NCBI RefSeq assembly: GCF_000004825.1
Contig: NW_008805075.1
Coordinates: forward strand, 683,788-747,787
Source: Heterostelium album PN500
Taxonomy: Eukaryota > Evosea > Eumycetozoa > Acytosteliales > Acytosteliaceae
Length of the DNA: 64,000 nucleotides
Direction: 5' to 3'
How positions within the stretch are numbered: position 1 is the first letter of the stretch; every line of letters starts with the position of its first letter. The notes under the pieces are model-generated. The model did not search any database and was not told the DNA's origin. It worked only from the letters and a program-made list of their open reading frames with translations. Shown piece after piece: positions 22,532-61,422 of this stretch. The translations under genes and the position numbers were made by a program.

Positions 22532-25500
22532 ATGATGTCAAAGATATATCTTAAAATATTTGTAATTTTAATTATTTTCACACAAATAAATGGTAAATAT
22601 TAATTAAATATATACTTGGTTTTTTTTTTTTTTTTTTGTATGTTTGTTTATATCAAAATGACTGAAACACATGTCCACCTTAATTACACCAAACCACTCT
22701 ATATGTAAAGTGGTACCACTAATATGTGAAATTCCATTGTTTTATTTTTGTGGTCATATAATTTAGGCGGGTAGAATTTTGGTAAAGATGATCATCAAAA
22801 TTTTTAAATTCATTATTTTTTCATTAACAACTCAACTAAATTTTAATAAATATAATTTAGCTACACACTTTAGATATGGATCACTTTCATGGAAAACAAC
22901 ATCCGATCCTAAAGTCTACAGTTTTTCACTGAAGGTTGCATTTAGATACTCCTATTTCAATGAATCCGGAAATGGTGTACCACAAGTCGGAGAATCGATG
23001 AGCTATGGGAATGTAAAGGTTCAATACCTCTCTAATTGTTATTTCTGTAATCCACAACAATATAAAACCAATTTCTTAGTGGATCATATCGACTATGACA
23101 ATGATTGGCTTACTGCCGAGTATGCCTTCACCATCGACTTTAACGGCCAATACGATCTCTATGTATCCTATCATAACAGTGAACGTCTATCAACTTTAAA
23201 CAATAATGCAAGAGGTATGTTTGTTTGTTTGTCTAAATATAAACATTTTAAATACTAATCTAATTGTAAACAAAAAAAATTTTTTTAAGGTGATTGGAAT
23301 ATTGCTACAAGATTCAATATGGAGGAGATTAGTAATCTCAATATTAGTCAAGTTGAAATAGGTTCACCTGTTACTGGTTTATTACCTGTTGTCAATGCAT
23401 ACGTGGGTCAAACCAATAGATGGAGAATACCAGCTGTAGATCCCGTAAATGAGGGTATTACTTATTCATTTTCGAGTGAATCGGAAATGCCAGGAGTTCA
23501 ACCATCTGGAATGTCCATCTCTCCTGATGGTATTGTGTCGTTCACTCCGACACAAGAAGGTGTTTTCTGTTCTCAAGTTAATATATCAAAGAGCTACCCA
23601 TTCTTTACTTACACTGTCGTTGACTACATGATCAATGTAACCAAACCATCGGGATTTACTGGTTTACCTCCTGTTTTCATTGACCCAACACCATCGCCTA
23701 ACAAAATATTGACAGTTGTTGCCAATGATGCTGTTTCGATTATCATTGTTGGACAATCGCCACAACCAACATCCAGTGTTTTCATTTCAATTGGAAATCT
23801 ACCAGATGGAATGACTACCGTTTCACAAACCAATAGTCCAACGAATATTGAAAAGTTGGTGTTCAATTGGAAACCTACCACCTCACAGGCTGGTATTTAT
23901 GTTATTACCCTTGGTTTGGTCGACAGCCAAGGACTCCAACTTGCTGGGGGTGTTCAATCTTTCTCTCTCAACGTAACTCTGCCCGAGTGTGGAAATGGAA
24001 AGAAGAGTTATTCCGGTACAACTTGTATTTGTTATCCAGGCTGGGCTGGTAAACAATGTATTGACTGTGATACCAGTTATTTTGGTTCCAGCTGTCAAAA
24101 GACACCAGAGTGTATCAATGGTAAATCAAATGATGGAATCTATGGCGATGGCCAGTGTGTATGTGATCACGGATGGATTGGATCGTCTTGTAACATTAGT
24201 CTTGTTCGTAGATGTAGTACAAGTGAATCAAGTTATATAGTTACCGAGTCAACAAGTGATTCCAGTAATTTCCAATCATCGTCCGTTCAAATCTATTTGA
24301 ATCGTTTCTTGCAAACCACACCACCACTGGTAGTTCAAACCAAGTTTGTCAAATCTCCACAATCCATTCCACTAGATTTGTATTTCGTTCTCGACGTATC
24401 ATCGAGTCCATCGATTTCAAATCTCTACAACCAATTCCAGAAGATCTATCCAGATTTCGAGAGTTACTTGGTTCCATACATTCGTGAGAAGGCAAAGTTT
24501 GGATTCGGTTATTTCTCAGACTCTGAAAATCAACCAAATTCATTCCAGTTAATCTCTGTTTTAAATAATTCTATTAAAAATGAAATTAAGTCAATTTCAT
24601 TGAGTAGTGGACTACCTCAACCAAACATACAATACCAAGCACTGATAGATGCTGCCTCTACAGTATCGTGGAGTACAACTGGTAGTTTGAAAATGATGAT
24701 TTTAGTTACCGACAATGATTTGGCACCAACTAATTCATCGTTAATTCCAACATTAAAATCAATACTTGCCAAGCAAAACATATTGCTTGGAGTATTCTCA
24801 ATGGATATCGTTACTTCCTACACCAATTGGATGACTCCAGACATTGGTATTGCATCTTCTTGGTCAACTACTTCGATATGGTATAGAGAGCTGATTAGTA
24901 ATATAATTGTACCAATGGGATCACAATTACAAACTAGTGTAGTTGGTGATCAATCATTTGTATCAAGTGGTCCAACTGAAATCTCAACAGGATTGTTTGA
25001 ATCAAGTTTCAACTATCCTGAAACTGGCGAGCCTGTTTCCACCCCAACAGTTTCCATAAATGTCGTTGGATATGGAAAGCAAACCATTCAAATCGCTTAT
25101 AATCACCCACCTACTACCACATCAACCATTGTCAATCTTCAAATGAATGATAATCGTACATTTTCCATTCCAACAAACGATATCGATGAAAATATTCTCA
25201 GTATCCAATTCAAATCAATTCCGTCTCAAGGTGTATTATTATTCAACGAATCCCAGATTGTTATTGATACACCATATCAACTTCCAACCATCCAAAGTTC
25301 GAATATTTTCCGTTATATTCCAAATGAATATTATTTCGGAGTAGATCAGGTTGTTTATACTATTGATGATGGATGTACAAGTGCCAATGGTCAAGTCAAT
25401 TTCGAAATTGCCAAGATAAATCTACCACCAGTATGCAACCCAAAGACAATTGCCACCGATCAATTCACAGAAGTCCAATTCTCAATTGAATCTTCAGATT

Positions 25501-28500
25501 TCGAAGGTGATCTATATTCATTGAAATTCGGTAGTCTAGCAGGTGTTGGAGCTATTGGTGTAATTACTGAAAATGATATTCCAGTCAACCAAGTATCACA
25601 GTATTCCAATTCTTCTACATTTGTTTTCAAACCATTGGAAACTTCCATTAATACAAACATCTCTATTCCAATTCAAGTATTCGATATCAATGGGTTTTCA
25701 TCACAGTGCGCATTAACCATTGTTATCAATCGAATCAATGTTCCTCCAACTATAAACGTTGACCAAAGACAATTGATTGTGCCAACCGGTAACCTTACTA
25801 TTCCTTTCTCAGTAACGGACATGGATCCCGATGAAGAGCTGACAGTTACTTTGACAACTATCAATCCAAAGAATGGTGCATTCTATGACTCTAATGGAAA
25901 GTTAATCAAACCAATCGATATTCCATATGATTTGGAAGTTTTTAACAATGTTCAAAGTGCATCTTCTTTCTTCTTTTATAAAGCTGCTAACTTCGAAGAT
26001 ACAGGAGTTAGTTTTACCATTCAAGTTATGGATAAAGCTGGCGTTCTAGATTCCGAGAAAGTCTCCATTACAGTCAATGGAAGCAGAGCCAACAGTCCAC
26101 CAAAGGCATTCAAAGTAGGTGATCTTTATCTTCTTCAAGATAAAATTTCATCTGTTTTCACATTGAACGGATCGGATACCGATGGTCCACTATTAGATCC
26201 AAAACTTTCGGTGGTTATTTCCTCACCCCCAAAGTTTGGACAACTTTTAAATGACGATGGTGTTACTCCCATTTCCAATCAAAACTATGCTCCTTTGAGA
26301 GTCATCTATAAACCAAATCCAGGTTACTATGGAAATGATAATCTAATTTACTATTTGGAAGACTCGATGGCCGCCCAATCCAATCAGGTCAATGTTAATT
26401 TCAATGTTAAATTTGTTAACCATCCACCATATGTAAACGCTCCAAACCTAACTTTGTACAGAAGTAACGATAATACTGAAGTTTCATTAGCATTCACCAT
26501 TATTGCAACCGATGTCGATCAAGATGATCCACTCTCAGTTAGAATCACCTCATTCCCTTCATATGGAAGTCTTTTATATTTAGATGGATCACCTATTAAT
26601 GGTTTCAAGAAATTAAAGGATTTAAATATTCAATTTATTGTTCCAGAGACCATTAATTATGACTTCACGACCGATTATACCGTGGAGGTATGTGATTCGT
26701 TTGACGCTTGCTACGAAGATATCGGAACAATCGTATACAGCTATACAACAATCAGAAATCCACCGACTTGTAGACCAACACCAATCTATCTAAATCAACT
26801 GAACCCTATTAATTTCGTTTTGAAAGGATTCAACAGTGATCCATCCAACAAAATGAAAATTGCTCTCTATGGATTGCGTTCACTTGTCAACTTTGGTCAA
26901 ATCATGTCAAGTACCACAAACTCATTGGTTAAAGATGGTGATCGATTCGACCAACCAGCTACATTTACATTCAAACCGGAAACAACAACACATGGAGGTG
27001 TCATCATTCTTCCATTTGTTGTTTTCGACAGTAGTAATCTCACTGCCCAATGTACACTCTTGATCAATGTGACTCGAGTCTACGTACCACCAATCATCTC
27101 CATCTCAAGACAAATCACAATGAACCCAGACACCTTAAGAACCATCCCATTCTCCATTTTCAACTATAATTACATCAGCTGTAATGTAACAGTCAGTATT
27201 ACAGCAATCAATAGCGGTGGAGGATCATTCTTTGACGGTTCCAAGCACCTTATATCAAATGATCCCTATAAGCTTGGTGATTTCCAAATAGTAAAGGATG
27301 TACATGATTTTGCTTCTGGATTATCATACAAATCTATCAATGGTCAATATACTGCCAATTTTACAATCAAAGTAGTTGATGATAGAAATGGAACTGATTC
27401 CAAGAATGTCTCTATTGTTGTCGCTGGAAATGTCAAGCCTTACCCACCAGTTGCTATTCCAGTCCCAATGGTTTCAACTCTGCAGAATCAACAATCATTG
27501 GTAATCATACTTAATGGTAGCCATCCTTTCCGACCCTACTACAATGGTAGTCTGACTATTTACATTATCAACTTCCCTCTACACGGAGAAGTAGTACCCG
27601 ACAACGGAGCCACCAAACAGGAGATAAAGTTAGATTCACCTGCTTCCGTTGTATATATTCCAAATACCGATTATTCTGGTACAGATCAATTTGATTTCTA
27701 CGTAAAGGATCAATTTGGTTTGGTTTCAACTCCCGAAACAGTTAAGATTACCATTGAAAAAGTAGACTATGCACCAACAATCAATTTAAATCCAGAGACT
27801 ATTCTCTCATCAACCAGTTGCGGTCAAAATATCGAGAATATCAACATCTCAGTGTCAGTAACCAATCACAATCTAATGCACAATCTTCAAGTTAAATTAT
27901 TACAACTACCTGCCAATGGAACCATTCTCTATGATGGACAGCCAATCGATCCAAACAATATGCCATTCCAGTTCAACTCTTCAAAGGGACTACAGTATCT
28001 GCCTTCTAAATCATTCCATTCCTACAATTCAACCTATATTATAGAAGCATGTGATCGTCTTTGTTCAATTGCAACTGGAAATATTGTTATCCAATATATC
28101 GATTCACTTCCCCAAGGTAGAGATGAACAATACTATATGAAACAGAATCAAGATTCACACTTTGCACTTTTTGGTCAAGACTGTAAAGATGGATTCAATG
28201 TTAAATTCCAATTCCTCACGCTTCCTAAATTTGGTACTCTCTACGATGAATTGGGAATTGAAATTAACTCGACAAGCCAACTACAGGACAGCAATGCCTT
28301 TTCCTATGTACCATTCAAAGATGCTGTCAGTCTGGAGACCAATGGAAATGAAAGTCCATTGGAAAGTTTCTCTTATCAAGTCATCAACAACAATTCCCTT
28401 GCCTCTCAAAGATCCTATTCCATCGAAATCTTTGTCCATCCCATCCCAACTTATATTGGAGAATCACATTTTACATCTCACGAAGAAACACTCTTGACCA

Positions 28501-29813
28501 TTCCAATTCTTGTCTCGTTCAATGGAAAACCTTATTCATTGGTCATCAACAGCTTCTCAGCCAATGGACAATTGTACTATATCAATAGTATTGGTAAAAT
28601 TGTTTATATTCCCTCATCTGGATTGCTCTTAAATGAATACAACTATGTACTTTATTATATGCCACCAAAAGATATCTATGGTTGGAAAGTTGATACGATT
28701 GCATTCCATTTGAATGGTACATATGATTCGGATTTGTATTTGATAGATATCGATGTCACTCAAGTCTTCCAAGCACCAGTCATTGTCCCCTTGACCTTTA
28801 CCAAGAATGGAACAACCCTACCATTCCAACATTTCGATGCTGAACTCTTTGTCAATCAATCAACAGTCATCACCTTTGATGTTACTTCAAGAGATCAATC
28901 ATGGGATGAGTTGAAATCATTTTTTGGAAGTGGACAATCACCATCTGGAGTGTTTTGTCAATACGATCAAACTGTCACAAACTTTTGTGGTGATTATCTG
29001 ACCTACAACTCGATCATCAAGAGATCAGATGAAGATCAACTCTGGAGAGTTGTATATATTCCACATAAAGGAAGAACTGGTTTGAGAATTTCTCAATTCA
29101 CAATCATCGGACAGGATTCCATCAACAAGACCACCTCGGAGAGAATATACATTTCAGTTCTCAGAATTAATATTCCACCAGTTGTAATACTGACCCAAAA
29201 CCGATTCAATACCACTATCGATGTTCCAATTTCATTCAATAATATCTCAGTATTCGATCCAGATTCAACTGAAAATAATAATATCACTTTTACACTAAGT
29301 TTGATATCTACTTTGGATAATGAATTGACATTGGACGGTTCAATCGATTTACCATTTGCATTGGAGTCATCGTGTAATATCACTGTCAACCAAGTAAACT
29401 GTACCAATTCGAACGATATACTTAATAGATTCTTGGAAGCCATCTCAGTTGTTTTCAAACAAGTTGGAGACTATCAATTGGTTGTCAATGTAAACGATCA
29501 AGGTTATAATTCACTCAGACCAGATCAAAACAAACTTAGTGATTCCAAGTCAATCCTTATCAGTGTTAGTCAAGCGCCAAATCCTAGTAAACCTTATAAA
29601 ACTACAATTATTATAGTCACTTCTATTATAGGTGGTTTGGGCTTGGCCTCTATTGTAGCATTTTCAGTTTGGAGAATTCTTAAATCAAGAACTCCTCCAA
29701 CAGAAGCATACTTTGGAGAATACTATTCCAAGGATGTCAGTATAAATCCATTGTATGTCCCACCCACCAATATCTCTAGTGGAATAAATCCACTTTACGA
29801 AAATAAAAATTAA
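22532..29813 (+). CDS. Sib-type (integrin-beta-like) giant cell-surface adhesion protein
   Basis: Three exons, 22532-22592, 22861-23214 and 23290-29813, give 2,312 aa. Exon 1 is a signal peptide (MMSKIYLKIFVILIIF), spliced to ATHFRYGSLSW. Two EGF-like Cys-rich units lie at about 371-440, followed by a VWA domain (about 495-690) whose MIDAS motif is DVSSS. Then come about twelve cadherin/Ig-like beta units, many opening with PP(V/T) and holding D-x-D or DxxGxxS motifs. Near the end are a Gly-containing TM helix (IIIVTSIIGGLGLASIVAF) and a 40-residue tail with two NPLY motifs (2291-2294, 2305-2308). VWA, TM and tandem NPxY are the marks of Dictyostelium Sib proteins, which bind talin and mediate adhesion to substrates and particles. 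The TM and tail fit that role. Which of SibA-E it matches cannot be told by eye. Confidence 0.9.
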
Positions 29814-29876: not shown

Positions 29877-31271
29877 TTAAGTACTTAATAAAAAAATTGA
29901 TAATAAATAAAAAACTAATCCAAAGAGATAAACTTGATATGCCTGAAACCATCGAGTAAAGTAAAGTAATGGTTTGTTTCGTAAAAACCATAGTTTAAGT
30001 TCTTTTTGTTGGTTTTTATGAACATAGGCTGATTCGGTAAATCCTTCTGTTCGGTTTTTGTTGAGCCAGTCCAAAATTTCGATATTACCAGTATAAATAG
30101 CGTTGTTCATTGCCTCAACAGAACATCCTTGATTAGTATTAAAGTGTAAATACTTTAAGACTTCGAAATGACCATTCAACGATGCATTATCCATGGCAAA
30201 TTTGGAACAACCTTCATTTCTATTTTCATTTAGAAATTGAACGATTTCAAGAAATCCTCCTTCTGCTGCGTAGTCCATAGATCGGTAAGTACATCCTTCT
30301 GTTCTATTATTATGTAACCATATCACGATGTTGTTGAATCCATTTTTACAAGCGAGATCAAAAGCATCTGTTGAACATCCTTCTGTTCTATTATTATGTA
30401 ACCATATCACGATGTTGTCGAATCCATTTTTACAAGCGAGATCCATCGCTCTCTTTGAACATGAACCTATATTATTAAAGTCCAACCACTTTAAAACTTC
30501 TATGTGTCCGAATTCAGCTGCAACATCCATTAGATTTGTCATTTCATATACACTTGTATCTCTATTCTCTCGTTTCAAGTATTCGAGAACATGTAGTTGA
30601 TTTTCTCGTACAGCAGATTCAAACATGTGGTTTCCAAGTGTAAAATCTTCTGATCTATTGGCATCCAACCATTCAATCATATCGATTCGACCAACTTTGG
30701 CAGCAGAGGCATATGTCTCTGTTGTAGAAGAATAGGTTCCTAGTTGTTTCGATACATACTCCAACATCTCAATGCTGTTTGATAGCGGTGATTTTATAAT
30801 GGCCTGATGATAATGCATATCGATACCTTGCCGCTTGTAGATTTCCTCTAGGTATTTGAACACCTCCAATTTACCAAACCAAGCTGCATAGCACAATAGA
30901 TTATATCCACTTCGTGAGTGGCACCCAGCTAGAATAGTTCTATCAGTATCAATTTCATCAATGATATACTTTAAGATTTCGATGGTATTTGGTATTGATG
31001 ATCTGATTGCATTAACCAGCATACGATTTAAATGTTCTCTTGGTATTAGCCTTATCTTGTGGTGTTTTTGGAACAAATCAAGATAGCCATTCCCTATTAA
31101 AACATATGGGATGTTGATCATTTCATCCCAACTATAGGTATCCCATTTTTTTTTATTGCGTTCATATTCTGTTCTATTATATTCTCTAGGTAATCTATTA
31201 AATCTAAAGCTTAATATTAATCTTTTTAAAACTATATTATTTAATACAGATAATAACAATGATTTATTCAT
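29877..31271 (-). CDS. Ankyrin-repeat protein (WLxxNRTEGC family)
   Basis: Single exon, 464 aa from the ATG at 31271 (MNKSLLLSVLNNIVLKRLIL). The frame is open 23 codons further upstream, but that extension is low-complexity Phe/Asn sequence and not conserved in paralogues. After the YSWDEMINIPYVLIGNGYLD cap come about ten ankyrin-like repeats; several carry the amoebal signature WL-x-x-NR-T/S-EGCS-x-x-A-M-D. Repeats near residues 305-345 are almost identical in DNA (two adjacent copies around 30300-30430), showing recent internal duplication. The C-terminal 45 residues are more hydrophobic (VYLFGLVFYLLSIFLLST), a possible membrane anchor not seen in the other members. Function unknown. Confidence 0.85.
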   Translation of the reverse strand: MNKSLLLSVLNNIVLKRLILSFRFNRLPREYNRTEYERNKKKWDTYSWDEMINIPYVLIGNGYLDLFQKHHKIRLIPREHLNRMLVNAIRSSIPNTIEILKYIIDEIDTDRTILAGCHSRSGYNLLCYAAWFGKLEVFKYLEEIYKRQGIDMHYHQAIIKSPLSNSIEMLEYVSKQLGTYSSTTETYASAAKVGRIDMIEWLDANRSEDFTLGNHMFESAVRENQLHVLEYLKRENRDTSVYEMTNLMDVAAEFGHIEVLKWLDFNNIGSCSKRAMDLACKNGFDNIVIWLHNNRTEGCSTDAFDLACKNGFNNIVIWLHNNRTEGCTYRSMDYAAEGGFLEIVQFLNENRNEGCSKFAMDNASLNGHFEVLKYLHFNTNQGCSVEAMNNAIYTGNIEILDWLNKNRTEGFTESAYVHKNQQKELKLWFLRNKPLLYFTRWFQAYQVYLFGLVFYLLSIFLLST

Positions 31272-31544
31272 TTTTTTTGAATAGGTTAAAAAAAACAAAA
31301 AGATATTTTTATTTGTAAAGTTTAATATGTGAAAAAACAATTAAATTGATTTGGAGATTTTTGTTGTTGTTTTGATAAAATCAAAAGTGTGAGTGGGTTC
31401 AAAAATGGGGGTAAAGGTTACAGTCAAGAGCCAGTTTTGTTTTGTGGATGATTGAAAGACTATTTTTGATTTTTAAAATTATTAAATTCTTTTTATTTTT
31501 TTATTTAGTCTATGATACAAAGAAAGAAGAGATTAATAAAATAT

Positions 31545-32310
31545 TTATTTTTTAACTTCAAAAAGTCTGGCAGTAATTGAATGATGGGGGGGTTCTAAGT
31601 GAAAGATATTGGTACTTCCAGGAGGAACTGCTACTGGACTAGAAATTTGATCACTTTTTGAATTGGCATTGGTTACATGAATGGTCTTTTTGGATCTCTT
31701 CTTTTTGATTGCTACTACAATTCCCACTGTAATAGCGGCTACTGCAACACCTCCACCTACTGCAATTCCAACGATGGCACCAACTGATAAGACAGCAGAA
31801 GAAGCAGCAGATGTTTCTGGAGGAATTCCTCCAGTAAATTTAGAAACAAAATCTGAATATGATATATCAGCATAATAATTTAAGGATACTATGTTTTTTA
31901 ATTATAATATAAGATTAATAAATATAAATTAAAAATAATATAATGGTTTTTTTATACTTACACATTTGAACATTAGATTTTGGAAGGGTGACAGTGGGAG
32001 CAGAAGCAAAACTAACTAACGGATTAATTTGCTCTTGAGTAACAAAATCAATTGCAGAATTAGACTCTGGGTTTTGGGTCACAATTACATCTGGAAGTTG
32101 GTTAAACTTGGAATTGTGAGAGACGACCTTATTGAAATTGACTTTCCAGGTTTGAAAAGCTGTTTGGAATTCCTCACTGGTGTAGGATTTCTTGTATGCA
32201 GCTGCCCAAGCTTTGAATACATCTTGTACATCGGAATCACTTGCAATGTATTCCGATGATATGTTATTTACAAATAATATTAAACAAATAATTAAAACTA
32301 TATATTTCAT
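31545..32310 (-). CDS. Membrane-anchored stand-alone papain prodomain (I29), copy 1
   Basis: Two exons, 32310-31962 and 31888-31545, give 230 aa. Signal peptide 1-20. Residues 30-70 match the cathepsin propeptide inhibitor domain I29, with ERFNIN spacing intact and conservative changes: E47, A51, W55, N58, V62, N66. Downstream NYYADISYSDF (120-130) resembles the prodomain N-x-F-x-D-x-x-x-x-EF block. Where a cathepsin would continue into its catalytic domain, this protein has instead a Gly/Ala-rich TM helix (about 148-177), a KKKRSKK stop-transfer and a tail ending with EPPHHSITARLF. Free I29 proteins such as CTLA-2 and crammer inhibit papain-type proteases. It is head-to-head with a CAP-papain gene 556 bp away that lacks a prodomain, hence a likely partner. 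Confidence 0.85.
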
Positions 32311-32866
32311 CTTGTTTTTTTTTTTTTATAAAGTTGGATATGAATAGATTTTTTGATTGTTTTTAAAAGATTAATAGATTGATAACTTAAATTTAAGTCT
32401 TTTTAAAAAACAATTTTAATCTGCAATTAAATTTTATTTGTTAATGGTATAAATTTATAAATTCGAGGATTTAATAAATTAAGACCAATGAACATTCTTT
32501 AAAACTTTATCATAATTTGCATAATTTGTAGATCCACCATATTTTTTGATTTTTGAGTTTTGATTGGTTTTGACATTTTTTTATCCAATCAATTTTTGAT
32601 TTTTGCTGAATATGGGTTTTCAGAATAAATCCGGATTGATCAAAATAATTATTAAATATATAATTTTTGTACAATCTAAATTAGATAACTATTATTATAA
32701 AACTAAATAAAATTGGATTAGAAATGGATTGATTAAAGATTATAAATAATAAAAAAAAAATAGTTTGTCTTTTTAATTGTAATCTTACTTTTTTTTTTAT
32801 ATTTTTAGTAATAAATATCTTATTTTTATTTATATACTTATATATATTTTATTTGTATTATTAAAA
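32311..32866. promoter_or_regulatory. Shared divergent promoter region, I29/protease pair 1
   Basis: 556-bp AT-rich spacer between the start codons of the divergently transcribed I29-TM and CAP-papain genes. No specific element could be identified, but any upstream elements for both genes must lie here. The pairing is repeated at 36922-37626. Confidence 0.5.
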
Positions 32867-34322
32867 ATGTCTAAAATTGTATTATTAAATTTGTTTATAA
32901 TTATATTTACATCATTGGTTGTTGGTCAATTTACTAATGACGAACTACAAACGGTTATTGCTTATCATAACTATCTGAGAACCTATCCAAGTCCACCTTC
33001 TGCGACTCCACTTACACCATTGACCTATGACCAAGGGATTGCCGACATTTTAAATAAAACCATGAGCACATGTTCAGGATGGAGTCCGATCGCCATGCAA
33101 GGTACCGGTTCGGAATGGCAATATTGGTGGAACCCTGCGTCTGCTTTTAGTGTAGCTAGCCAAATGGATATGATTGCTGAACAATCCTTCAACTATGATT
33201 GGAATGTTCTAAATTGTCAAGAAAATACTGTTTGTCTGTAAGTTTTTAACTTTTTAAATCTATTCTTTCTTTTTTTGTTTCTTTTTAATTTACCATTGTA
33301 CATACACTATCTACTTGTTATGTAGTCCATGGTTATATATTGTTTGGTCATCTGTATCTAAATATGGTTGTGCAAAAGCTATTTGCAATGGTCAAGCCCA
33401 TATGGGTTGTACATATCAGTCACAAGGTGGCTTTGATGGAGTTGCACCATACCAAGTAAAAGTTACTCCAACACCAACTCCTACTCAAACTCCTACTCCA
33501 ACTTCAACTCCATCATCAACTCCATCACAAACACCTACCCAAACACCAACACAAACACCATCACCATCTCCAAGTTCGACTCCTAAATCTGATTCTCTAA
33601 CTATCGATTGGAGAAATGGATATGTAACACCAATTCGTAACCAAGGAAATTGTAAGTTTTTTTTTAAAAAATTATATATATTTTACAAACCATTAGATGG
33701 ATAATAATACTAATATAATTTTCCAAAAAAAAAAAAAAAATTAGGTGGAAGTTGTTGGGCATTCGGATCTGTAGCAGCAATGGAATCGAGATATCTCATC
33801 AAGAATGGAAATTCCCAAGTATCGACACTTGATCTATCGGAACAAAATGCAGTAAGTTGTCTTCCCAACGGTTGCGAGGGTGGCTGGATTAATAAGGTAT
33901 TCGACGCATTCCAATCGCCAGGTATCGCCTATGAATCTGACAACCCATACTTGGCTGAAGACGGTCAGCCATGTAGTTACACCTCACCCAACAACCATCC
34001 TAGATTCTTCTTCAACGGCTACGGTAGTACCTCCAATTCCAAAGATGAACTGATCAATGAGCTTCAGAACGGACCGGTAACTGTTGGTCTTTGGGTCGAT
34101 GATAGTTTCCAACTGTACTCCTCTGGTATCTTTACATGTAGTCAAGTGTACACTACGACCAACCACGTTGTTTTGGTCGTCGGTTACAATCAAGAGCAAG
34201 ACTACTATATCATTAAGAATTCTTGGAGTACTCAATGGGGCAATTCGGGGTATATGTATTTAAGTGCCGCTAACGATAACTGCTGCATGCTTACCTATGG
34301 TGGATACTATCCAACATTCTAA
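32867..34322 (+). CDS. Secreted CAP(SCP)-papain fusion cysteine protease, copy 1
   Basis: Three exons, 32867-33237, 33326-33651 and 33745-34322, give 424 aa. Signal peptide about 1-21. Residues 22-165 are a CAP/SCP domain: YHNYLR, LTYDQ, VW-x-x-V-x-KYGCAKAIC and the signature-2-like GGFDGVAPY. A 45-residue Pro/Thr/Ser linker follows, then a C1A papain domain beginning IDWRNGYVTPIRNQGN. The active site is complete: oxyanion Gln, C236 in CGSCWAF, H373 in TTNHVVLVVGY and N391 in KNSWSTQWG. There is no I29 prodomain anywhere; the CAP domain occupies its place. Intron 2 splits the codon three residues before the catalytic Cys. It is probably lysosomal or extracellular. The divergent neighbour encodes a free I29, a plausible inhibitor or folding aid in trans. 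Confidence 0.9.
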
Positions 34323-34932
34323 TTAACAAACATTGTATTTTGCTTACTAAATATTAACTAATAAGATAAATAAATAAAATTGTTGTAATATTAAATATCA
34401 AAATGATAATAATACCTGTGATATTTATCAGTCAAAATGATATAACTAACTAATAACAGCAATAATTAAACAGTTTACATATACTTGATTCATTGAGATA
34501 GATAGATAATTAATTAGCGAAGATGGTGGATAAAAAAATCTCTATTGCTGCGTGATGTTAAGTGAATTATAAAGGTAAATTGTTATTATCCACACACACT
34601 AATAACAATAGCAATAACAATTTTACAAAAACAAGTAATTTGTAAAATAACAAAGATAAGAAAAAAAAAAAAAATCTACTCCCCCCTTACTTATCTGTTT
34701 ATATCTGTTTTTATCTATTTACATCTGTATTTTTGAATTAATTAATTTATTATTTGTTTTTTAAACACACACAACCACAAACAAACAAAAAAAATAAACC
34801 AATACTACTCGTTACAAGTAGTTTGGTTGATCATCATCAATCACTGAAAGCAAAGAGAAAAAAAAATAAAAAAATCATTTATCAAAAATGAAACTACAGT
34901 TTGTTTCCTTTTTTCAAACAACAACCTCTTGA
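34323..34932. other. Intergenic spacer
   Basis: 610 bp, AT-rich, with CAAA-type repeats, a CCCCCC run near 34681 and a CACACACAC phrase near 34600. No gene seen. Confidence 0.5.
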
Positions 34933-36153
34933 ATGGAAATGAATAAAGTATTGTTTCAAAAGATATTTAATAATAGTGTATTAAGTAAATTGATTTTTAA
35001 CTTGGTACATCATATTCATTTCGATCTTTTAAAACAAAATCATTGTATTTACAAGTGGAAAGATGTCATTAATACACCATACGTTCTGTCTGGTCATGGC
35101 TATCTAGAACTATTGAAAGAATATCTCAGTCGGAACAATAAGAATATGTGCGTTTCATTCATAGACTACAGTTATAACTATCAGATTCTAGTGGATGCAG
35201 TACGAGGTTGTAATGGTCTTCATATTCTTAAATTCCTATTGGATGAACTACGGATCGATCCGTACAAGATATGGCAGAGTCAGCAAAACACCACTGAAGA
35301 TCTGATGTATTTCGCTGCGAAACACGGACGCTTGGAGATAATCTACTACCTGGTTGGCAAATATAGTCGATGGGATTTCTACAACGCTATTACTGTGGCA
35401 CCGCTCTCTGGAAACATGGAACTGTTGAAATTCATAGGTTCTCAAGCTTGTGAAACATTCGAAAACACTGGCGCTGTCAATTTCGAAAACTATTTAACTA
35501 CAACATACGATTCAGCTGCATTGGTCGGTAGAATCGATTTCATTCAATGGTTACAGGAGAATCGATCTCAAGATCTTCAACTGAATAATTGTAGGTTGTA
35601 TAACAGTGCGATCGAAGGTGGTCATCTTCCTTTACTCCGGTACCTTGTAGAGAACAAAATTGGTTATGAAAAGCTAGGAAATATATTCGACTATGCAACA
35701 CTACAAAAGCAACCAAACACTCTTGATATACTGGAATTCCTTCAAATACATTTTAAAACTGGATTTTGTACACAGGCAGCAATGAATAATGCAGCTTCCA
35801 CCAACAACATGGAGGTTTTACGATGGTTGCATAACAATAGAAGTGAAGGATGTTCATCGAAAGCAATGAACGAAGCCGCCAAGAACAACAATTTTGATAT
35901 GTTAAAGTGGCTCAATGAAAATAGGAGTGAAGGATGTACAAACTATGCAATTGAAAATGCAATCTATCATCAAAATATAGAAATGATTCAGTATCTTCAT
36001 GTTAATAGACCGGAATGCTCAGAGTTAACTTTTGAATTATATATGGTTTATCATAGTGGTATTCGAAAAGCAAAGAATCAAAACAACTATAAACTCTATG
36101 AGCTATTAATGCAACATGATATATTAAAGTTGTCGGCTGACGAATATATTTAA
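34933..36153 (+). CDS. Ankyrin-repeat protein between the two protease modules
   Basis: Single exon, 406 aa (MEMNKVLFQKIFNNSVLSKLIF). The usual cap YKWKDVINTPYVLSGHGYLE is followed by about eight ankyrin-like repeats, including EVLRWLHNNRSEGCSSKAMN and DMLKWLNENRSEGCTNYAIE. A second in-frame Met two codons later (MNKVLF) matches paralogue starts better and may be the true initiator. It is the only member of the 29-64 kb group on the plus strand and separates the two I29/CAP-papain pairs; its 3' end converges on I29 copy 2 with 64 bp between stops. There is no evidence that it acts with the proteases. Confidence 0.85.
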   Translation: MEMNKVLFQKIFNNSVLSKLIFNLVHHIHFDLLKQNHCIYKWKDVINTPYVLSGHGYLELLKEYLSRNNKNMCVSFIDYSYNYQILVDAVRGCNGLHILKFLLDELRIDPYKIWQSQQNTTEDLMYFAAKHGRLEIIYYLVGKYSRWDFYNAITVAPLSGNMELLKFIGSQACETFENTGAVNFENYLTTTYDSAALVGRIDFIQWLQENRSQDLQLNNCRLYNSAIEGGHLPLLRYLVENKIGYEKLGNIFDYATLQKQPNTLDILEFLQIHFKTGFCTQAAMNNAASTNNMEVLRWLHNNRSEGCSSKAMNEAAKNNNFDMLKWLNENRSEGCTNYAIENAIYHQNIEMIQYLHVNRPECSELTFELYMVYHSGIRKAKNQNNYKLYELLMQHDILKLSADEYI

Positions 36154-36217
36154 ATAATAAAACAGTGTACATTAGTTATAATTAAACAAAAACCATATCT
36201 ATGATATTATGTTTATT

Positions 36218-36921
36218 TTATTTTTTAACACCGAAAAGTCTGGCTGTGATAGAGTGATGAGGTGGTTCCAAGTTAAAGACGTTGGTAGCACCCTCAGGAA
36301 TTGGGGTTGGTGAAGAAATTTCTTTACCTTGAAGTTCTACTTCTTTGTTTTGGTTGGCTCTTCTTTTCTTGATGATAACGACAGTCGTTGTGGCAGCACC
36401 GGCAACAAACACCGCACCTCCTGCAGCAATTGCAGCAATAGTCGAAGCAGCCAAACCGGCAGCAGCAACAGCTGGTGGAGTAGCACCTGTAAATGTTGAA
36501 GCAAACTCAGAGTATGACATATCACCATAATAATTCATAGTTTCTAAAATAAAAAGTTGGTAAATAAAAAAGTTTTTATATAAATTAGATCATCTTTAAA
36601 CTTACGAAGTTGTGCATCTGCTTTTGGATAAGTAATTGTAGGACCAGCAGCATCATTTAATAAAGAATTTATATTTGAACTAGGATTGCTTACAACTGCA
36701 TCTGGTAGATTGGCAAATTGTGAATTGTGTTGGTTGACAGCTTGGAAATTATCTTTCCACTTTAGGTAAGCCGATTGGAATTCATCGTTGGTATAGGTTT
36801 TCTGGTAAGCAGCGGACCATGATTTGAAAACAGCTTGAATGTCTGCCTCAGTAGATTTATATTCAGCTAATACACAACTTGTAAAAATAATACATGAAAT
36901 AAATAATAATAAATAACGCAT
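36218..36921 (-). CDS. Membrane-anchored stand-alone papain prodomain (I29), copy 2
   Basis: Two exons, 36921-36606 and 36543-36218, give 213 aa. The plan is the same as copy 1 at the same residue numbers: signal peptide 1-19, I29 domain with E47, A51, W55, N58, V62, N66, then NYYGDMSYSEF (109-119), an Ala/Gly-rich TM helix (about 135-163), IIKKRR stop-transfer and a cytosolic tail ending LEPPHHSITARLFGVKK. The intron falls at the same point, between the ERFNIN helix and the NYYGD block. The strongest conservation with copy 1 is in the I29 helix, the NYY(A/G)D(I/M)SYS block and the tail, not the TM or the acidic link, which suggests selection on both ends. Head-to-head with CAP-papain copy 2. 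Confidence 0.85.
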
Positions 36922-36933
36922 TTTTTTAAAGAA

Positions 36934-36969
36934 AATAAATAAAATAAATAAATAAATAAATAAATAAAA
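36934..36969. repeat. (AAAT)n microsatellite
   Basis: About eight AAAT units in the 5' leader of I29 copy 2 (sense TTTA). Confidence 0.8.
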
Positions 36970-37574
36970 AATTTCGAAAATTATAGAAAAAACAATGTAA
37001 ATGTAGAACCTATCTTTAATCAAACAACTTGTTTTAAATTAAAATAATTAGATCAAATATTGAACCCAACAACAAATCCAATCATACTTTCATATTGGTA
37101 TAAAGATCTATACCAGAGATCTCAAATCCTATTATTGTAAAAAAAAACAATTTTTTTTTGAAGTTGATCAAGAGAATCTAGAATCAAAAGATATTTTTGT
37201 AAATTTCGATTTTTTTGGAACCTAAACCCTTTTTCTTGGTTGTTTTTAGAGATATTTTTAGTTGTTTGATGAAACGATTGTAAATGAACAAATTAATTAA
37301 TTAATTAAGAAATCTTGATCTCCAGGCTTATCAAACATGAACAAAATAATCTTAAACCTTGAATTTGGTTTTTAGTAATTTCTTTAGGATGAATTGTTTT
37401 TTTTTTTTTTTGATAGAATGATCGATTATCATAATCGAAAAAATATCTTAAAAAAAATCAAAAGAACCTTTGATAGGAATCCCAAAATCAGTAATTTACA
37501 AATAGGATGGTTTGTAGTCCAACATTTTAAAATTGAAATTTACAAATAAATAAACTTTTTAGTTTTTTATTTAC

Positions 37575-37576
37575 TT

Positions 37577-37607
<31 letters not shown>

Positions 37608-37610
37608 TTA
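37575..37610. repeat. (TTTA)n microsatellite
   Basis: About eight TTTA units ending 16 bp before the ATG of CAP-papain copy 2; forms an inverted pair with the run at 36934-36969. Confidence 0.8.
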
Positions 37611-37626
37611 TTTTGTAATTTTAAAA

Positions 37627-39045
37627 ATGAAATTAAATTTATTTATTATATTATTTACGATATCTTTTGTTGCAGGTCAACTTTCCAGTGATGATGTGCA
37701 ATATTTAATTACCTATCATAATAATTTGAGAAGTAATCCAACTCCATCAGCCTATCCAACGTTAAGTTTGTTGACCTACGATTATGATATTGCCAATGTA
37801 ATCCAGACTGAACTTAGTACCTGCAGAGGACAATGGAGTCAATTGGTATATCAAGGTGTAGCATCTGAGTGGCAGTATTGGTGGACTCCAGCTTCATACT
37901 TTACTCTTCCAATCCAAATGGATTATATTAACAAACAAGCGGCTAATTATGATTGGAGTATTAAAGATTGTAAAGCCGGTACAACTTGTAAAGTAAGTAA
38001 TAACATTTGAATATTATTATTTACTTATTTTAATTAGCTTTTTTATTTTTTATTAGCCTTGGCAATTTATGGTGTGGTCCCAAACTACTAAATTCGGTTG
38101 TGGAAAAGCTGTATGTGGTGACTATACTTATATGTCTTGTGCCTATCAATCACCAGGTGGATATCAAGGTGTTGCTCCATACACACCAGGTACCCCCCCA
38201 CCTCCCCCAACTCCACCACCTCCACCTCCCACTCCAAATCCAAACAGTATTGATTGGAGAAATGGATATGTAACTAAAGTTAAGAATCAAGGTCAATGTA
38301 AGTTTTTTTCTTATTAATATATTCTACAAAATTATAAATATTAATAATATTATATTTATTACACTTTTTTTTTTTCAGGTGGTTCATGTTGGACTTTCGG
38401 TTCCATTGGTGCACTTGAATCAAGATTTTTAATTAAGAATGGTAACTCTCAACTAAGTACATTGGATCTAGCTGAACAAAATGCTGTAAATTGTAAGTAA
38501 CATCGTTATTCATTAATCAAGTTTTCCAATTTAATTAATTTAATCTTTTCTATTTCTTATCCTTTTTCTTTTTTTTTCAAGGTTTACCATATGGATGTAA
38601 TGGTGGTTGGTCATCTAAAGTATTTACTGACTTCCAAGCTCCTGGAATTGCTTATGAAGCTGAATTACCATATAAAGCTGCTGTTGAATCTTGTAGTTTT
38701 ACCTCACCACCAGGCACACCAAGATTCTTTTATTCAGGCTATGGAAGAACTCCAGCAGGTGATAAACAAGCTTTACTTGCTGAACTTAGAAGAGGACCAA
38801 TTGCTGTATCTCTCTGGGTAGATGATGCCTTCCAGCGTTACTCTAGTGGTATTTTCAGTTGTCAGCAGCAATATACCACTACCAATCATATTGTTTTGTT
38901 GGTTGGTTATGATGCCGACAAAGATTACTATATTTTGAAGAACTCTTGGGATACTTGGTGGGGTCAGGCGGGCTATATGTATTTGAGTGGTGCCAATGAT
39001 AACTGCTACATGTTGGGATATTCTTCTTATTATCCAGTAATCTAA
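37627..39045 (+). CDS. Secreted CAP(SCP)-papain fusion cysteine protease, copy 2
   Basis: Four exons, 37627-37992, 38057-38297, 38379-38492 and 38582-39045, give 394 aa. Signal peptide about 1-17, CAP domain 18-150 (YHNNLR, VWSQTTKFGCGKAVC, GGYQGVAPY), a short Pro-rich linker (PPPPPTPPPPPPTPNPN), then the papain domain from IDWRNGYVTKVKNQG. Catalytic residues are present: C206 in CGSCWTF, H343 in TTNHIVLLVGY, N361 in KNSWDTWWG. Like copy 1 it has no I29 prodomain. It has one intron (38493-38581) absent from copy 1, within AVN|CLPYGCNGGW, and a different linker type. Two active-looking copies, each with its own divergent I29 gene, argue that the pair is kept as a unit. Confidence 0.9.
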
Positions 39046-39247: not shown

Positions 39248-41279
39248 TCAATATTTACTCTCTAACCAGAAGCTATCGTGTACTAGATTTCTATTGTTAC
39301 CAACATATTCGAAATACAATGATGTAGTGTTGGCGTAGAATCTGGTGTAACCATAGTTGATAGCTCTGAAAATAGAGTAATCTGGTTGAATTTCATGACC
39401 GTTTCCATTGTCCAAATCGGTAGCAGTCCATGGTACTTGATAAGTATTTCCTGCCATTCCAATTAAAACGTGAACTGGAGCATCGTTATCAGATTGTGCA
39501 CATGTACCATTATTTAATCCACACATTCTTTCATAAACATGACTAAATATAAATTTGTAAATTGTTAATAAATTAATATTTCGAGCTGTAGTTTGAATAA
39601 AACTTACACATGACCCCAAAGACAGAGATTAACATCATATTCAATTAAAAGTGGTTCGATATTTAAACGAAGATTGGTTTTAAGACCAATTTCGTCACCC
39701 GGTAGTGCAGAGTCATACATTGGACGATGACCACTGAATACAACCCATGGTGTTCTGGTTCTATCGACAGATGCGAGATCTTGCTTGAGCCATTCGTATT
39801 GAGGTGATCCAGCTAAAAAGTCGTGTTCAGCAGACATCACAGTAAAGTGAATTGGTCCATTCTCGAATGAATACCAAAGATTTCTCTCGGGAGTATTCTC
39901 TGCACCTGTCATATGATATCTAGTGTTATATGGAACTCCACATTCACCACCACTATCAGTACCGTAATCACTCCAACTTGGATTGAATGATTGATTCTTA
40001 TAATCCCATTCATGACTATATTGATGATAATATTAATATTAAAATTAATTAGAATTATGAAAAAACAAACACATACTTTCCAATTGAAACCATGTATGGA
40101 GCACGACCAAGTACTTCGGCCATTGAATCTTGGAAATAATCCCAAAGGAAAGCATATCCTCTGGCGTATGAAATATCACCAATGTGGAGTACTGTCCAGG
40201 TTGGTGATTGGTTAAGTCCGTTTACCGATTTCTTTCCGAGTTTTTTCGCGAGTGGACTGTGAGAGATTGGTGCCATCACAGTTTGGTAGACGTTGGCAAC
40301 AGTCTGTGGTGCCGGTGTTTGAGCGTCGCTGTTGGCCGGGTAAAAAGATGGCATAACACCAAGATCACCAAATGCAATGATATAGGCCTCGGAAGCTGGT
40401 GCCGGTGCACTGATGAAGCTGAATGGACCGGCGAATCCATCGTTGTTACTTCCGAAAGTGTAGTAGTATTCGGTGGCGTGATCCAGTCCGCTGATGATAA
40501 CATCGTGGATAAATCCGGGATTACGGAAATAGAGTGGATCGATTGCAGGCTTCTCACACATCTGATTGATGGTGTAGGTAACAGTGGTACCGGTGAATTT
40601 ATCGAGCAGAGACGATGGCGATGTTCCAACCATAACGATTGGGGTGTCGTCGGTACCAGAGATCCACATGAGACGCATCTCATCGGTGTTGTTGGTCAGT
40701 GAGAGATACTGTTTGCCTGGCATATTAAGATTCTCAAAGGTGACAACATTGGAGGTGGCTACATTTGTCAACATAATCTTGTCATAGGTGATGGTTGGTG
40801 GTACGTTTCCAGGCACCCAGATTCTGAATAAATAGTTATCACGAACATTTACCAACTTTATTGACATTGAACCATATCCTTCTCTCCAAGCTATATTATT
40901 GATTGATATTATAAAAAGTTAGCAAATAAAAAGTAAGTCGTATAAATATAATTTACTTACTTGAAGAATTTGAAAGTAAAATATAACCTACTGGAGCAGT
41001 AATGTTTGAATCGACTGGGAAGTAAATAGCCAAAGCATCCATTGGTGTTGGATTTTCAATACCTTGCCATGAAATCTCTATAAAATCACCTGATTGTTGT
41101 AAAACCTCTGTTTTTATGTATTAAGTGTAATGTATAGAGATATAAACTTGTTAGATAAGATATTTGATATGATCTATGTGAATATTATTATTACCTGGTG
41201 ATGCCTTTAAAATAGCTTGAGAATAACAATTACCAAACAATAAACATAATATCCCGAAAAGGATTATAATGATATTCAT
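39248..41279 (-). CDS. Purple acid phosphatase (metallophosphoesterase)
   Basis: Five exons, 41279-41195, 41107-40961, 40890-40077, 40015-39608 and 39542-39248, give 582 aa. Signal peptide in exon 1 (MNIIIILFGILCLLFGNCYS). An N-terminal Fn3-like domain contains RLMWISGTDD. All five PAP metal blocks are seen in order: FGDLG, GDISYARGYAFLW, GN|HE (split by intron 3), MSAEHDF and WGHV|HVYER (split by intron 4). The enzyme hydrolyses phosphate monoesters at acid pH with an Fe-Fe or Fe-Zn(Mn) centre and is usually lysosomal or secreted. Size is that of plant and fungal high-molecular-weight PAPs. It converges on CAP-papain copy 2, 202 bp apart; both could serve phagosomal digestion, which is inference. 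Confidence 0.93.
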
Positions 41280-53197: not shown

Positions 53198-55216
53198 TCA
53201 TTCAAATTGCTTTGACCTTTTTTCAATATGGTCATCCAAGAGTTTAGTAGGAATCTCTGGATATCCATCTGAATCTATAGACTGATGGAATACCTTTAGT
53301 TTGTCCAATGGGAAGTTGATCTTGTCCAAAAGGAATTCAATCATTTCATCATCGCCAGAAGAATAAAAATTTTTAAGAAATTCGTCTGGTTCAGACTGTT
53401 GATTGGCAAACTCTGGATGTTTCTCCAAGAGATATTCAATCATGTCCATATGCCCAGTTGCAATCGATAACCGAAAACCTTCTATAGTACATTGGCAATC
53501 ACTTCTGTTTTCATAGAGCCATTTCACAAGCGGGAATTGCATTCCATCAATTGCATCCTCCATTGAAGAGTCATTGAACACACCTTGAATATTATATTCA
53601 TTCAGCCATTTGATCATTCTTATTAAACCATTGTTGAATGCGATTGAGATTGTTGGCTTTGGGAAAACAACATTGGGATTCTTGGCGTAAATAATGTCAA
53701 CTATTTCCGTGTATCCGTTTATTATCGCATTGTGAAACATTTCAGTCACATCGATTTCAAAGTTCTCCAATATCCAATTGGTAATCTCTGCATTTCGTGG
53801 GTACATGTCATTTATGACTAACTGCTTCAAATTGGAAATCTCAGTTCTGTTATCTTTCAACCATTTCATCGTTTCGAAATGATTATAACTTATCGCATTT
53901 TTAAGAGCTCTTCCAGTACATCCTTCACTTCTATTTTCATGCAACCAAATTAACATCGTAATATCGCCGTGTCTTGCTGCTGAATCCATAGCATCCGTGG
54001 TGATTGAATTTGGAATATTCTCATGCAGCCATCTGATAACATGCATATGGTTTAAGTGGGCTGCACACTCCATTGCCCATGTAGTTGGTCGTTCAGTACG
54101 ATTGGCAAATAACCATTTTATAATTTCCAAGTTTCCGCCTATAACTGCATCACTGATACTAATTTCATTTGCCGATGTTTGATTCTCTAATAACCATAGT
54201 GCAACTTCAGTGTATCCTACTTTACACACAACATCAAAAACATATTTACTGCAACTTTCAGTCAGGTTTTCATGTAACCATTTAAGAACTTCAAAATGAT
54301 TGCCTAATGCTGCGTTGTCCATTACTATATCGCTGCCTCTGATAGTTGTATTTTCCTTCATCCACTTTAACATTTCGATATTCCCGTGGCATGCAGCAAA
54401 ATCCATAAGAGGTACCTGTGATTCTCTGATATTATTGTGATATAACAGTTTTGCGATTTCCAATTGATTGCAATAGATTGAATAGTCAAAAAGAGAATCA
54501 TATTCTAATGATGGAGATACACGTAGAGGTTCATTGATATCGAGAAGATATTGAACAACATGGAGATGTCCACCTTCAATTGCAGAGCCATACATTGTAC
54601 TTTCCTCTCTATCGTTTGATCTATTCTCTGCAAGCCATTCAATCATATGGATTCGACCCTTCTTGGCAGCACTATCAAAAGATACACCTTCTTCAAAACT
54701 AATAGGCAGCCTTGTCTGATCACAATTCTCCAGTTTTTCGTGTAAGTACTTGATCATCTCCAAATCTCCAGACAACGGTGCTTTGACTAGTGCCTGATAG
54801 TAATTCAACCGCTTCTTTTCAAACTCTGTACAAATGTATTTAACCATTTCCAAACTACCATACTCTGCTGCACAACACAAGATATTATTGAATTGGATTT
54901 CGTGACGGTATTCCGTTTTTGAGATCGGCTTCACCAAATCAACCAGATACTTCAATGTCTCGAAGCATTTACACTTGATAGCACCTGTGAACGTTGCAGT
55001 CAAAAAAGGATAGATTGAATGATCGGCATAATGTTGTTTAAGTTCATTTAAATAAGAGTTACCAGCCATTACATGTGGATTCCTAATTACTTCTGACCAT
55101 CTAAATTTGCGAATCTCTTTATCGGTAACTACACCATGAATATCACTAACATATTTGAATATTAATTTATTTAATAAACAATTATTAAATATCTCTAAAA
55201 ATTTATCTTTTTGCAT
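53198..55216 (-). CDS. Ankyrin-repeat protein, 672 aa (tandem paralogue)
   Basis: Single intact exon, 672 aa, start MQKDKFLEIFNNCLLNKLIF. After the FRWSEVIRNPHVMAGNSYLN cap, about 16 ankyrin-like repeats run to the C-terminus. They include GSLEMVKYICTEFEKKRLNY, GHLHVVQYLLDINEP and several WLHENRSEGC-type units. The C-terminal segment (EFLLDKINFPLDKLK...IPTKLLDDHIEKR) is shared with the frameshifted gene to its left. Sequence identity among the three 50.9-57.8 kb copies is high at both ends and lower in the middle repeats, as if central repeats are exchanged or under diversifying change. The start context TAATCATGCAAAAAGA is identical in all three. Partner unknown. Confidence 0.9.
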   Translation of the reverse strand: MQKDKFLEIFNNCLLNKLIFKYVSDIHGVVTDKEIRKFRWSEVIRNPHVMAGNSYLNELKQHYADHSIYPFLTATFTGAIKCKCFETLKYLVDLVKPISKTEYRHEIQFNNILCCAAEYGSLEMVKYICTEFEKKRLNYYQALVKAPLSGDLEMIKYLHEKLENCDQTRLPISFEEGVSFDSAAKKGRIHMIEWLAENRSNDREESTMYGSAIEGGHLHVVQYLLDINEPLRVSPSLEYDSLFDYSIYCNQLEIAKLLYHNNIRESQVPLMDFAACHGNIEMLKWMKENTTIRGSDIVMDNAALGNHFEVLKWLHENLTESCSKYVFDVVCKVGYTEVALWLLENQTSANEISISDAVIGGNLEIIKWLFANRTERPTTWAMECAAHLNHMHVIRWLHENIPNSITTDAMDSAARHGDITMLIWLHENRSEGCTGRALKNAISYNHFETMKWLKDNRTEISNLKQLVINDMYPRNAEITNWILENFEIDVTEMFHNAIINGYTEIVDIIYAKNPNVVFPKPTISIAFNNGLIRMIKWLNEYNIQGVFNDSSMEDAIDGMQFPLVKWLYENRSDCQCTIEGFRLSIATGHMDMIEYLLEKHPEFANQQSEPDEFLKNFYSSGDDEMIEFLLDKINFPLDKLKVFHQSIDSDGYPEIPTKLLDDHIEKRSKQFE

Positions 55217-59613: not shown

Positions 59614-59824
59614 ACAGTGTTATTTGTATGGTGTATTATTATTATTATTATTATAAAAATGGATGATGAGTGTTAATGAATGATCTGATGTCATATCTTA
59701 AAAAAACAATGTTTATAAAACAAGATAACAAATCAATTCCTGATAACCAGCCCAAATCAGCTAGGAATTATTTTTTTTTTTTTTTGTATTTGTGATCAAA
59801 AAAATTGACACCTCATCGTTAACT

Positions 59825-61300: not shown

Positions 61301-61422
61301 TTGTTATTTGTAATAATAATATAAAGTGTCATGATAAAGCTTAAACTAAAAAAACATATCTTAAAAAAAAAAAAAAAAAAAGAAACTTTTAAGAAAAAGA
61401 TTTATGTCGATATTTTATATGT

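Follow-up and report, generated by a model that had tools for sequence, protein, structure and literature searches.

Divergent gene pairs in Heterostelium album encode CAP-papain proteases without a prodomain and membrane-anchored I29 proteins that may replace it in trans

Papain-family enzymes are the textbook case in which a prodomain in cis folds and silences its enzyme. We found that the 64,000-nucleotide stretch of Heterostelium album DNA analysed here (the window) contains two head-to-head gene pairs in which these parts are separated: one gene encodes a secreted protease with CAP and C1A (papain) domains and no I29 prodomain (CAP-C1A), and the other a predicted type I membrane protein with I29 (I29-TM). 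The divergent linkage is repeated elsewhere in the assembly, both halves of I29 appear to be retained in the membrane proteins and the proteases form one group in a tree. On balance, we lean towards the view that each pair is a papain-type zymogen divided between two genes, with I29-TM as the partner that provides latency, folding or membrane holding in trans. The most likely role of I29-TM is that of the missing prodomain, acting in trans as chaperone, inhibitor and membrane escort.

The two pairs had been proposed in a preliminary description of this DNA, and clean gene models and Pfam domains confirmed them; all four genes have GT..AG introns and splice cleanly. I29-TM 1 lies on the minus strand (32310-31545). 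Its first exon (31962..32310) encodes a signal-like N-terminus, the I29 helices (FKAW..Y.K.Y...EFQTAFQTWKVNFNKVVSHN; Pfam I29 E 1.7e-8, residues 32-71) and most of an insert, and its second exon (31545..31888) encodes, by alignment, motifs and hydropathy, the second half of I29 (NYYADISYSDFVSKFTG), a transmembrane segment and a cytosolic tail with HHSITAR. An A+T-rich region of 556 bp (32311..32866; GC 0.16, longest open frame 56 codons) separates its start codon from that of CAP-C1A protease 1 (32867..34322, plus strand, 424 aa; exons 32867-33237, 33326-33651 and 33745-34322), in which a signal-like N-terminus is followed by the CAP domain, a Pro/Thr linker and the papain domain. I29-TM 2 (36921-36218, minus strand) is likewise spliced from two exons, the first (36606..36921) with a Pfam I29 match at E 1.9e-6 (residues 32-119 of the spliced protein) and the second (36218..36543) with NYYGDMSYSEFASTFTG, the transmembrane segment and a tail with HHSITAR. 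Across 705 bp of A+T-rich DNA (36922..37626) lies CAP-C1A protease 2 (37627..39045, plus strand, 394 aa; exons 37627-37992, 38057-38297, 38379-38492 and 38582-39045). Both intergenic regions are candidate shared promoters. An ankyrin-repeat gene (34933-36153) separates the two pairs. A tRNA scan of the window with the bacterial code found none, and NCBIfam profiles gave no useful match.

Both window proteases match Pfam Peptidase_C1 (E 1.6e-56 for protease 1 and 3.9e-52 for protease 2) and CAP (E 2.3e-6 and 4.6e-7), with no match to I29 at E<=1. The Cys/His/Asn site was described as intact, and it is: the Gln/Cys region (NQG.CGSCW), the His and the Asn (KNSW) are present in both. We modelled the proteases of nine of the ten CAP-C1A loci in the assembly, all except C38b. 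Every one of the nine matches C1 at E 8.5e-47 or better, and the catalytic Gln, Cys, His and Asn are intact in eight by alignment and reading, the Cys region being altered in C7. CAP (PF00188, N-terminal half) scored above the cut-off of 21.1 bits in eight, with C15 just below it (20.9 bits, E 6.8e-4); including this sub-cut-off match, CAP occupies the usual place of the prodomain in all nine. A prodomain hidden within the protease was rejected, as Pfam found no I29 in any of the nine at E<=1, and an HMM built from the I29 domains of this genome and run with filters off gave a best E of 0.58 among them. The proposal that these proteases lack I29 therefore stands.

The converse proposal, a membrane-anchored I29 without a protease, also held, with one refinement. 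The Pfam I29 matches in both window membrane proteins are accompanied by a predicted transmembrane segment and by no protease domain in cis, and we found that an insert of about 30-40 residues, together with an intron, separates the ERFNIN-like helix of I29 from its N-x-[FY]-x-D segment. As a result, Pfam matches only the first half in I29-TM 1, whereas in I29-TM 2 the match spans 88 residues and takes in the entire profile. Seven of the eight spliced I29-TM proteins scanned passed the curated cut-off of PF08246 (24.4 bits) with 28.6-47.5 bits, C7 giving no I29 match, and C5 and C38b scored 24.4 and 26.1 bits on genome DNA only. By regular expression, the helix pattern was present in 7/9 I29-TM proteins and N-x-[FY]-x-D..[EDQ][FY]..G in 8/9. 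The R of ERFNIN and the G of GxNxFxD, the motifs of the I29 helix and second half, are mostly substituted, this glycine being retained only in C28 among the eight clear proteins. All eight retain the N..D..[EDQ][FY] and G positions of the second half, and in all eight the cleft-filling segment ends in TG or NG. A profile of six I29-TM proteins aligned in two segments, including N-x-F-x-D..EF..YTG, to the solved propeptides of pro-papain, procaricain and TgCPL (3f75_P). Both halves of I29, among them the stretch that occupies the active-site cleft of C1A enzymes, thus appear to be retained.

I29-TM reaches its membrane segment at about the point at which, in an in-cis protein, the mature protease would start. 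Kyte-Doolittle hydropathy shows, in each of the two window membrane proteins, a signal-like N-terminus of hydrophobic residues and, further on, a second hydrophobic stretch with lysines and arginines behind it; a hydrophobic stretch comes after I29 in all nine modelled I29-TM proteins. With this topology, I29-TM would enter the endoplasmic reticulum through its predicted signal peptide and stay in the membrane with I29 facing the lumen. There, I29 may dock on the C1A domain of the protease from the adjacent divergent gene and place its [YF]TG segment in the active-site cleft as an in-cis prodomain does. I29-TM would then aid folding, maintain latency and hold the protease at the membrane until acid or cleavage releases it, and the conserved cytosolic tail may direct the complex to a compartment of the endolysosomal system or of the cell surface. 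It is conceivable, if very improbable, that I29-TM is mainly a sorting receptor, whose I29 recognises the protease as cargo and whose tail carries it to the endolysosome, inhibition being incidental. A SIT[AG]R motif with a His just before it (H or H-x) indeed occurs in the tails of 8/8 clear I29-TM proteins, although these tails are otherwise of variable length. However, we recognised no established sorting signal in the tails, and the retained TG- or NG-ended cleft segment would be expected for blocking an active site and unneeded for recognition alone. As a general signal the tail motif was not upheld: a tail query matched only the C5, C38 and C4 copies and missed the other family tails, which makes it a weak negative.

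The pairing goes beyond chance, extending to most CAP-C1A genes of the assembly. These genes occur at ten loci on eight contigs, nine of which have a clear divergent I29-TM neighbour, C7 being doubtful. Outside the window the pair repeats at seven loci (C4, C5, C13, C15, C28 and two on C38), with C7 a doubtful eighth, so that the complementary domains and divergent pairing first noticed in two pairs are retained at nine loci, or ten with C7. The partner at C13 was located by tblastn and locus reading, that at C15 by I29-TM queries and that at C7 by locus reading. When all 47 C1A rows were merged to 34 loci, a membrane-protein neighbour lay within 2.5 kb of the C1A match at 10/10 CAP-C1A loci, C7 counted, and an I29-TM match lay near 0/24 of the others. 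Among 35 of the 47 rows, excluding weaker exon rows, 26 Pfam I29 matches were placed, 19 of them in cis, ahead of a C1A domain, and the other 7 in genes divergent from a CAP-C1A gene.

An in-cis prodomain had been taken as a general need of papain-type enzymes. A C1A enzyme without one is, however, not unusual in itself: 5 of the 34 C1A loci have neither an in-cis I29 match nor an I29-TM neighbour, so not every C1A enzyme requires an I29-type prodomain. The place of the CAP match raises a further explanation, which we consider unlikely: CAP may now do in cis what the prodomain did, leaving I29-TM as a surface or phagosomal inhibitor of, or receptor for, other cathepsins, either the amoeba's own or those of its prey. 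The in-cis I29 loci could supply such targets, and the known stand-alone I29 inhibitors have cathepsins from separate genes as their targets (PMC3551606, PMC4089206). By contrast, the adjacency of I29-TM to nine of ten CAP-C1A loci (ten with C7) and to none of the 24 other C1A loci, and the co-variation of partner distances described below, argue against it.

Queries with three I29-TM proteins also matched in-cis I29 genes and weaker loci, with some matches spanning the pre-transmembrane region. In a six-frame search for unlinked I29-TM genes at 14 other weak-match loci, which left out five weak matches (two on C3, two on C14 and one on C30), no significant I29 was found (best E 0.27). With first halves of I29, the controls (loci C4, C13 and C15) scored E 2.8e-15 to 1.8e-8. 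The family-profile matches at the 14 loci fell almost wholly in the transmembrane part. We dropped C7 as a firm tenth pair. Its membrane protein is divergent to a CAP-C1A gene, but the I29 HMM match was not significant (E 6.8) and its family-profile score (25.7 bits) was no better than those of unrelated membrane proteins of the same genome (up to 36.7 bits), which match through the transmembrane stretch only. We also rejected C38b as proof of co-decay of the partners: its two frame breaks each amount to a single-base difference from C38a within a short run, and both may be assembly errors.

Distances among the proteases agree with those among their partners. The two matrices correlated with r=0.97 over nine pairs (C38b out, C7 in; 2 of 20000 permutations) and with r=0.86 over seven (C5 and C7 also out; 40 of 5040 permutations). 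dN/dS was 0.16-0.35 for I29-TM in three comparisons and 0.19-0.31 for the proteases in two, with C38a/C4 left out; two dS values exceed 1 and one is near 1, making those ratios rough. These values show purifying selection on both partners. In a C1A tree of 18 rows (9/10 CAP-C1A and 9/24 others, two of these without I29), the CAP-C1A proteases form one group (95/99), and in an I29 tree of 18/19 in-cis domains and 8/10 I29-TM proteins, the latter form one weakly supported group (68/86). Both groupings fit a single origin followed by duplication of the unit, and one ancestral pair copied as a unit could yield both the linkage and the matching trees, so the pairs are not independent events. One could thus suppose that the linkage is historical and the role of I29-TM now unrelated to the protease, as the lack of a recognisable I29 in C7 might suggest; we think this improbable. 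Pairs diverged to about 30% identity are still adjacent on separate contigs, and the second-half positions of I29 are retained in every clear protein. No flanking protein was common to the loci at 1e-6 among 106 frames (flanks of about 0.8-3.5 kb). Within these short flanks, duplication of a larger segment was therefore rejected, and the pair itself appears to be the inherited unit.

Proteins of the CTLA-2, crammer and BCPI type are soluble and are not known to have a transmembrane segment. Similar to I29-TM, CTLA-2alpha, crammer, BCPI and salarin are I29 proteins without a protease in cis, and they are known to affect C1A enzymes in trans. In published excerpts, cathepsin B of Drosophila is the target of inhibition by crammer, and CTLA-2alpha is inhibitory in acid and has a stabilising effect on cathepsin L when the pH is neutral (PMC3551606, PMC4089206). 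The same excerpts describe no membrane form and no enzyme-adjacent gene for these four (PMC4089206, PMC3551606). I29-TM differs from them in its transmembrane segment, conserved cytosolic tail, I29 insert and dedicated divergent CAP-C1A gene. An I29 propeptide and a C1A enzyme occur as two chains in one structure of TgCPL (3f75_P and 3f75_A; profile match E 5.9e-8), but this state belongs to the experimental setting, unlike the separate genes of our pairs, and the native gene presumably encodes both in cis. Stand-alone propeptide-like regulators also include SUB1-ProM of Plasmodium and TgMIC5 of Toxoplasma; according to an excerpt, these have a subtilisin propeptide fold and concern serine proteases, SUB1 retains its own propeptide and, unlike I29-TM, neither regulator is reported there as membrane-anchored (PMC6993865). 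CfaD is described as a member of the cathepsin L family. The architecture of the enzyme is not new: modular CAP:C1A proteases with the same domains in the same order (CAP then C1A) are already in print, in a single sentence, for Planoprotostelium, Dictyostelium purpureum and Polysphondylium pallidum, with nothing said in the relevant excerpt of a missing prodomain or an I29-TM partner (PMC10084794). Among the matches listed from the open-licence literature, we found no report of an I29-TM/CAP-C1A pair.

Under the split-zymogen reading, a further possibility can be advanced tentatively: CAP-C1A may be unable to fold or stay latent without the membrane prodomain encoded beside it, which would confine its activity to membranes displaying the partner, and the nine or ten pairs, many of them diverged to about 30% identity, may each be partner-specific. 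If so, this would be a lineage in which a prodomain turned into a membrane protein of its own and kept its place next to the enzyme across eight or nine duplications. In such a lineage one could test directly how the specificity of a prodomain evolves, how a protease is confined to one membrane and by what means an amoeba that lives by phagocytosis keeps secreted or phagosomal proteolysis under control. The diverged pairs of this single genome offer a ready-made set for partner-swap tests of specificity.

Two divergent gene pairs lie in the window (C14:683788-747787 of a 32.9-Mb assembly of 39 contigs), each joining a secreted papain-family protease without an I29 prodomain (CAP-C1A) to a predicted membrane protein that carries I29 and no protease domain (I29-TM). 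Splicing produced four complete reading frames, with all introns GT..AG. The proteases (424 and 394 residues) matched Pfam Peptidase_C1 and CAP and had no Pfam I29 match, and the membrane proteins (230 and 213 residues) each had an I29 match. The coordinates and domain content given for both pairs in the preliminary description hold. The divergent start codons are separated by 556 and 705 bp of A+T-rich sequence, in which the longest open frame has 56 codons. Ankyrin repeats were found in five of the ten open frames scanned with Pfam (29877-31340 (-), 34933-36153 (+) and 53198-61303 (-)), one standing between the pairs and one adjoining pair 1. A purple acid phosphatase gene (39248-40918 (-); Pfam N-terminal domain at 40055-40918, with downstream frames phosphatase-like by eye) adjoins pair 2. 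The window also contains a 2174-codon open frame for a large Sib-type adhesion protein (23289-29813 (+); vWA_SIBA-E, SibA Ig-like, Big_9 and cadherin-like matches) and a 568-codon frame that was Rad51-like in the Pfam scan (8509-10215 (+)).

We searched the genome with the I29, CAP and C1A families and with the I29-TM and protease sequences. Merging C1A exon rows gave 34 C1A loci, ten of them CAP-C1A: two each on contigs C14 and C38, and one each on C4, C5, C7, C13, C15 and C28. A divergent membrane-protein gene was present within 2.5 kb of all ten, and was clearly I29-TM at nine; none of the other 24 C1A loci had such a neighbour. Among 26 I29 matches, 19 were in cis, upstream of a C1A domain in the same gene, and 7 were divergent, and 12 of 18 CAP matches lacked a same-strand C1A domain inside 3 kb. 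The second C38 pair calls for caution, being near-identical to the first with a one-base break in each gene. Fourteen other loci weakly matched by the I29-TM queries had no significant I29 in six frames, a check in which control loci on C4, C13 and C15 gave clear matches; five further weak matches lay outside it.

C1A and CAP matches were found in the nine spliced proteases (the CAP match on C15 fell marginally below the cut-off), and I29 was detected in none of them. Eight of the nine carry the Gln-Cys-His-Asn set, and the residue after the active-site cysteine is tyrosine, not tryptophan, on C4, C5 and in the first C38 pair. Among solved chains, those nearest in sequence belong to plant papain-like enzymes, to cathepsin K and to a cathepsin L-like protein.

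The C7 locus (L033, 1428-5291) keeps the pair layout, with a protease whose cysteine region is altered beside a divergent membrane protein. The latter occupies the position expected of a partner, contains a stretch (NNWATAYGRQ) resembling the first I29 helix, and matched the family profile (E 4e-7, 25.7 bits; best of 1000 shuffled sequences, 1.7). Because its I29 was not significant (E 6.8) and its profile match was equalled or beaten by unrelated membrane proteins matching only through the transmembrane stretch, we count this pair as doubtful, either diverged or unrelated.

Hydropathy of I29-TM revealed an N-terminal signal-like segment (below the threshold used on C13) and, further along, a second hydrophobic stretch with basic residues behind it. 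This pattern fits a type I membrane protein whose I29 domain lies outside the cytosol. The partial Pfam match had hinted at a truncated I29, yet both halves can be read in the spliced proteins: first an ERFNIN-like helix, next an insert of about 30-40 residues, and last N-x-[FY]-x-D..[EDQ][FY]..(Y/F)(T/N)G. A profile of six I29-TM proteins aligned in two segments with the pro-papain, procaricain and TgCPL propeptides. In known zymogens, part of the propeptide runs through the active-site cleft, and it is with this part that the I29-TM segment ending in TG aligns. For all eight clear proteins, the most hydrophobic window begins 19-24 residues past the glycine of TG/NG, which places the membrane anchor about where a mature protease would start in cis. 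Within the insert, P-x-[VI]-[ST]-[YFL]-P occurs in seven of the eight, C28 having T for the first P, and all eight cytosolic tails have SIT[AG]R after a histidine (H or H-x). An in-cis I29-C1A gene on C16 (289381-289608) has a longer, charged, cysteine-bearing loop at the insert site, so the I29 fold may tolerate an insert. Inhibition is reported to require Gly73 in crammer and residues 77-80, near the C terminus, in BCPI (PMC4089206). On our reading, these residues would correspond to the TG segment.

The fourteen weakly matched loci checked above (L036-L038 and L059-L069) encode membrane proteins without I29 whose transmembrane stretch, of the GLS.GAI.GI..G type, is much like that of I29-TM; it often follows Cys-Lys, and several of the proteins also have DPDF..L.D ahead of it. 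Judged from this likeness, I29-TM may have acquired its anchor from a family of this kind. One of these loci (L036, C14:652500-656500) holds two near-identical 299-codon frames of the family in opposite orientation.

In a tree of 18 C1A rows, CAP-C1A formed one group (95/99) in which C7 had a long branch, and in a tree of 26 I29 rows I29-TM formed one group with weak support (68/86). Partner distance matrices correlated (r 0.97 for nine pairs, C7 included; r 0.86 for seven pairs, 40 of 5040 permutations), as expected when pairs are copied as units, and this is not evidence of partner contact. No flanking proteins were common to the loci in the 0.8-3.5 kb compared, and dN/dS was below 0.4 in all comparisons that could be computed. 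The simplest reading is a single split, after which the pair was duplicated as a unit eight or nine times and neither member was lost.

Stand-alone I29 inhibitors are established. A single sentence in PMC10084794 records the CAP:C1A combination for slime moulds, and SUB1-ProM is described as a stand-alone propeptide-like regulator neighbouring a subtilase (PMC6993865). Among the matches listed in the open-licence literature, none described a C1A enzyme lacking its prodomain together with a partner I29 protein anchored in a membrane; such a report may exist elsewhere. Crammer and CTLA-2alpha are reported to inhibit in trans, and CTLA-2alpha to stabilise cathepsin L at neutral pH, with crammer reported effective too (PMC3551606, PMC4089206).

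Because the linkage is dedicated, the domains are complementary and the cleft segment is retained, we favour over its rivals the reading that I29-TM is a trans-acting prodomain of the neighbouring protease. By analogy with C1A biology, crammer and CTLA-2alpha, I29-TM would assist folding of the adjacent protease, keep it latent until release, and take part in its sorting. The interest of the finding lies in a pairing that is both exact and repeated.
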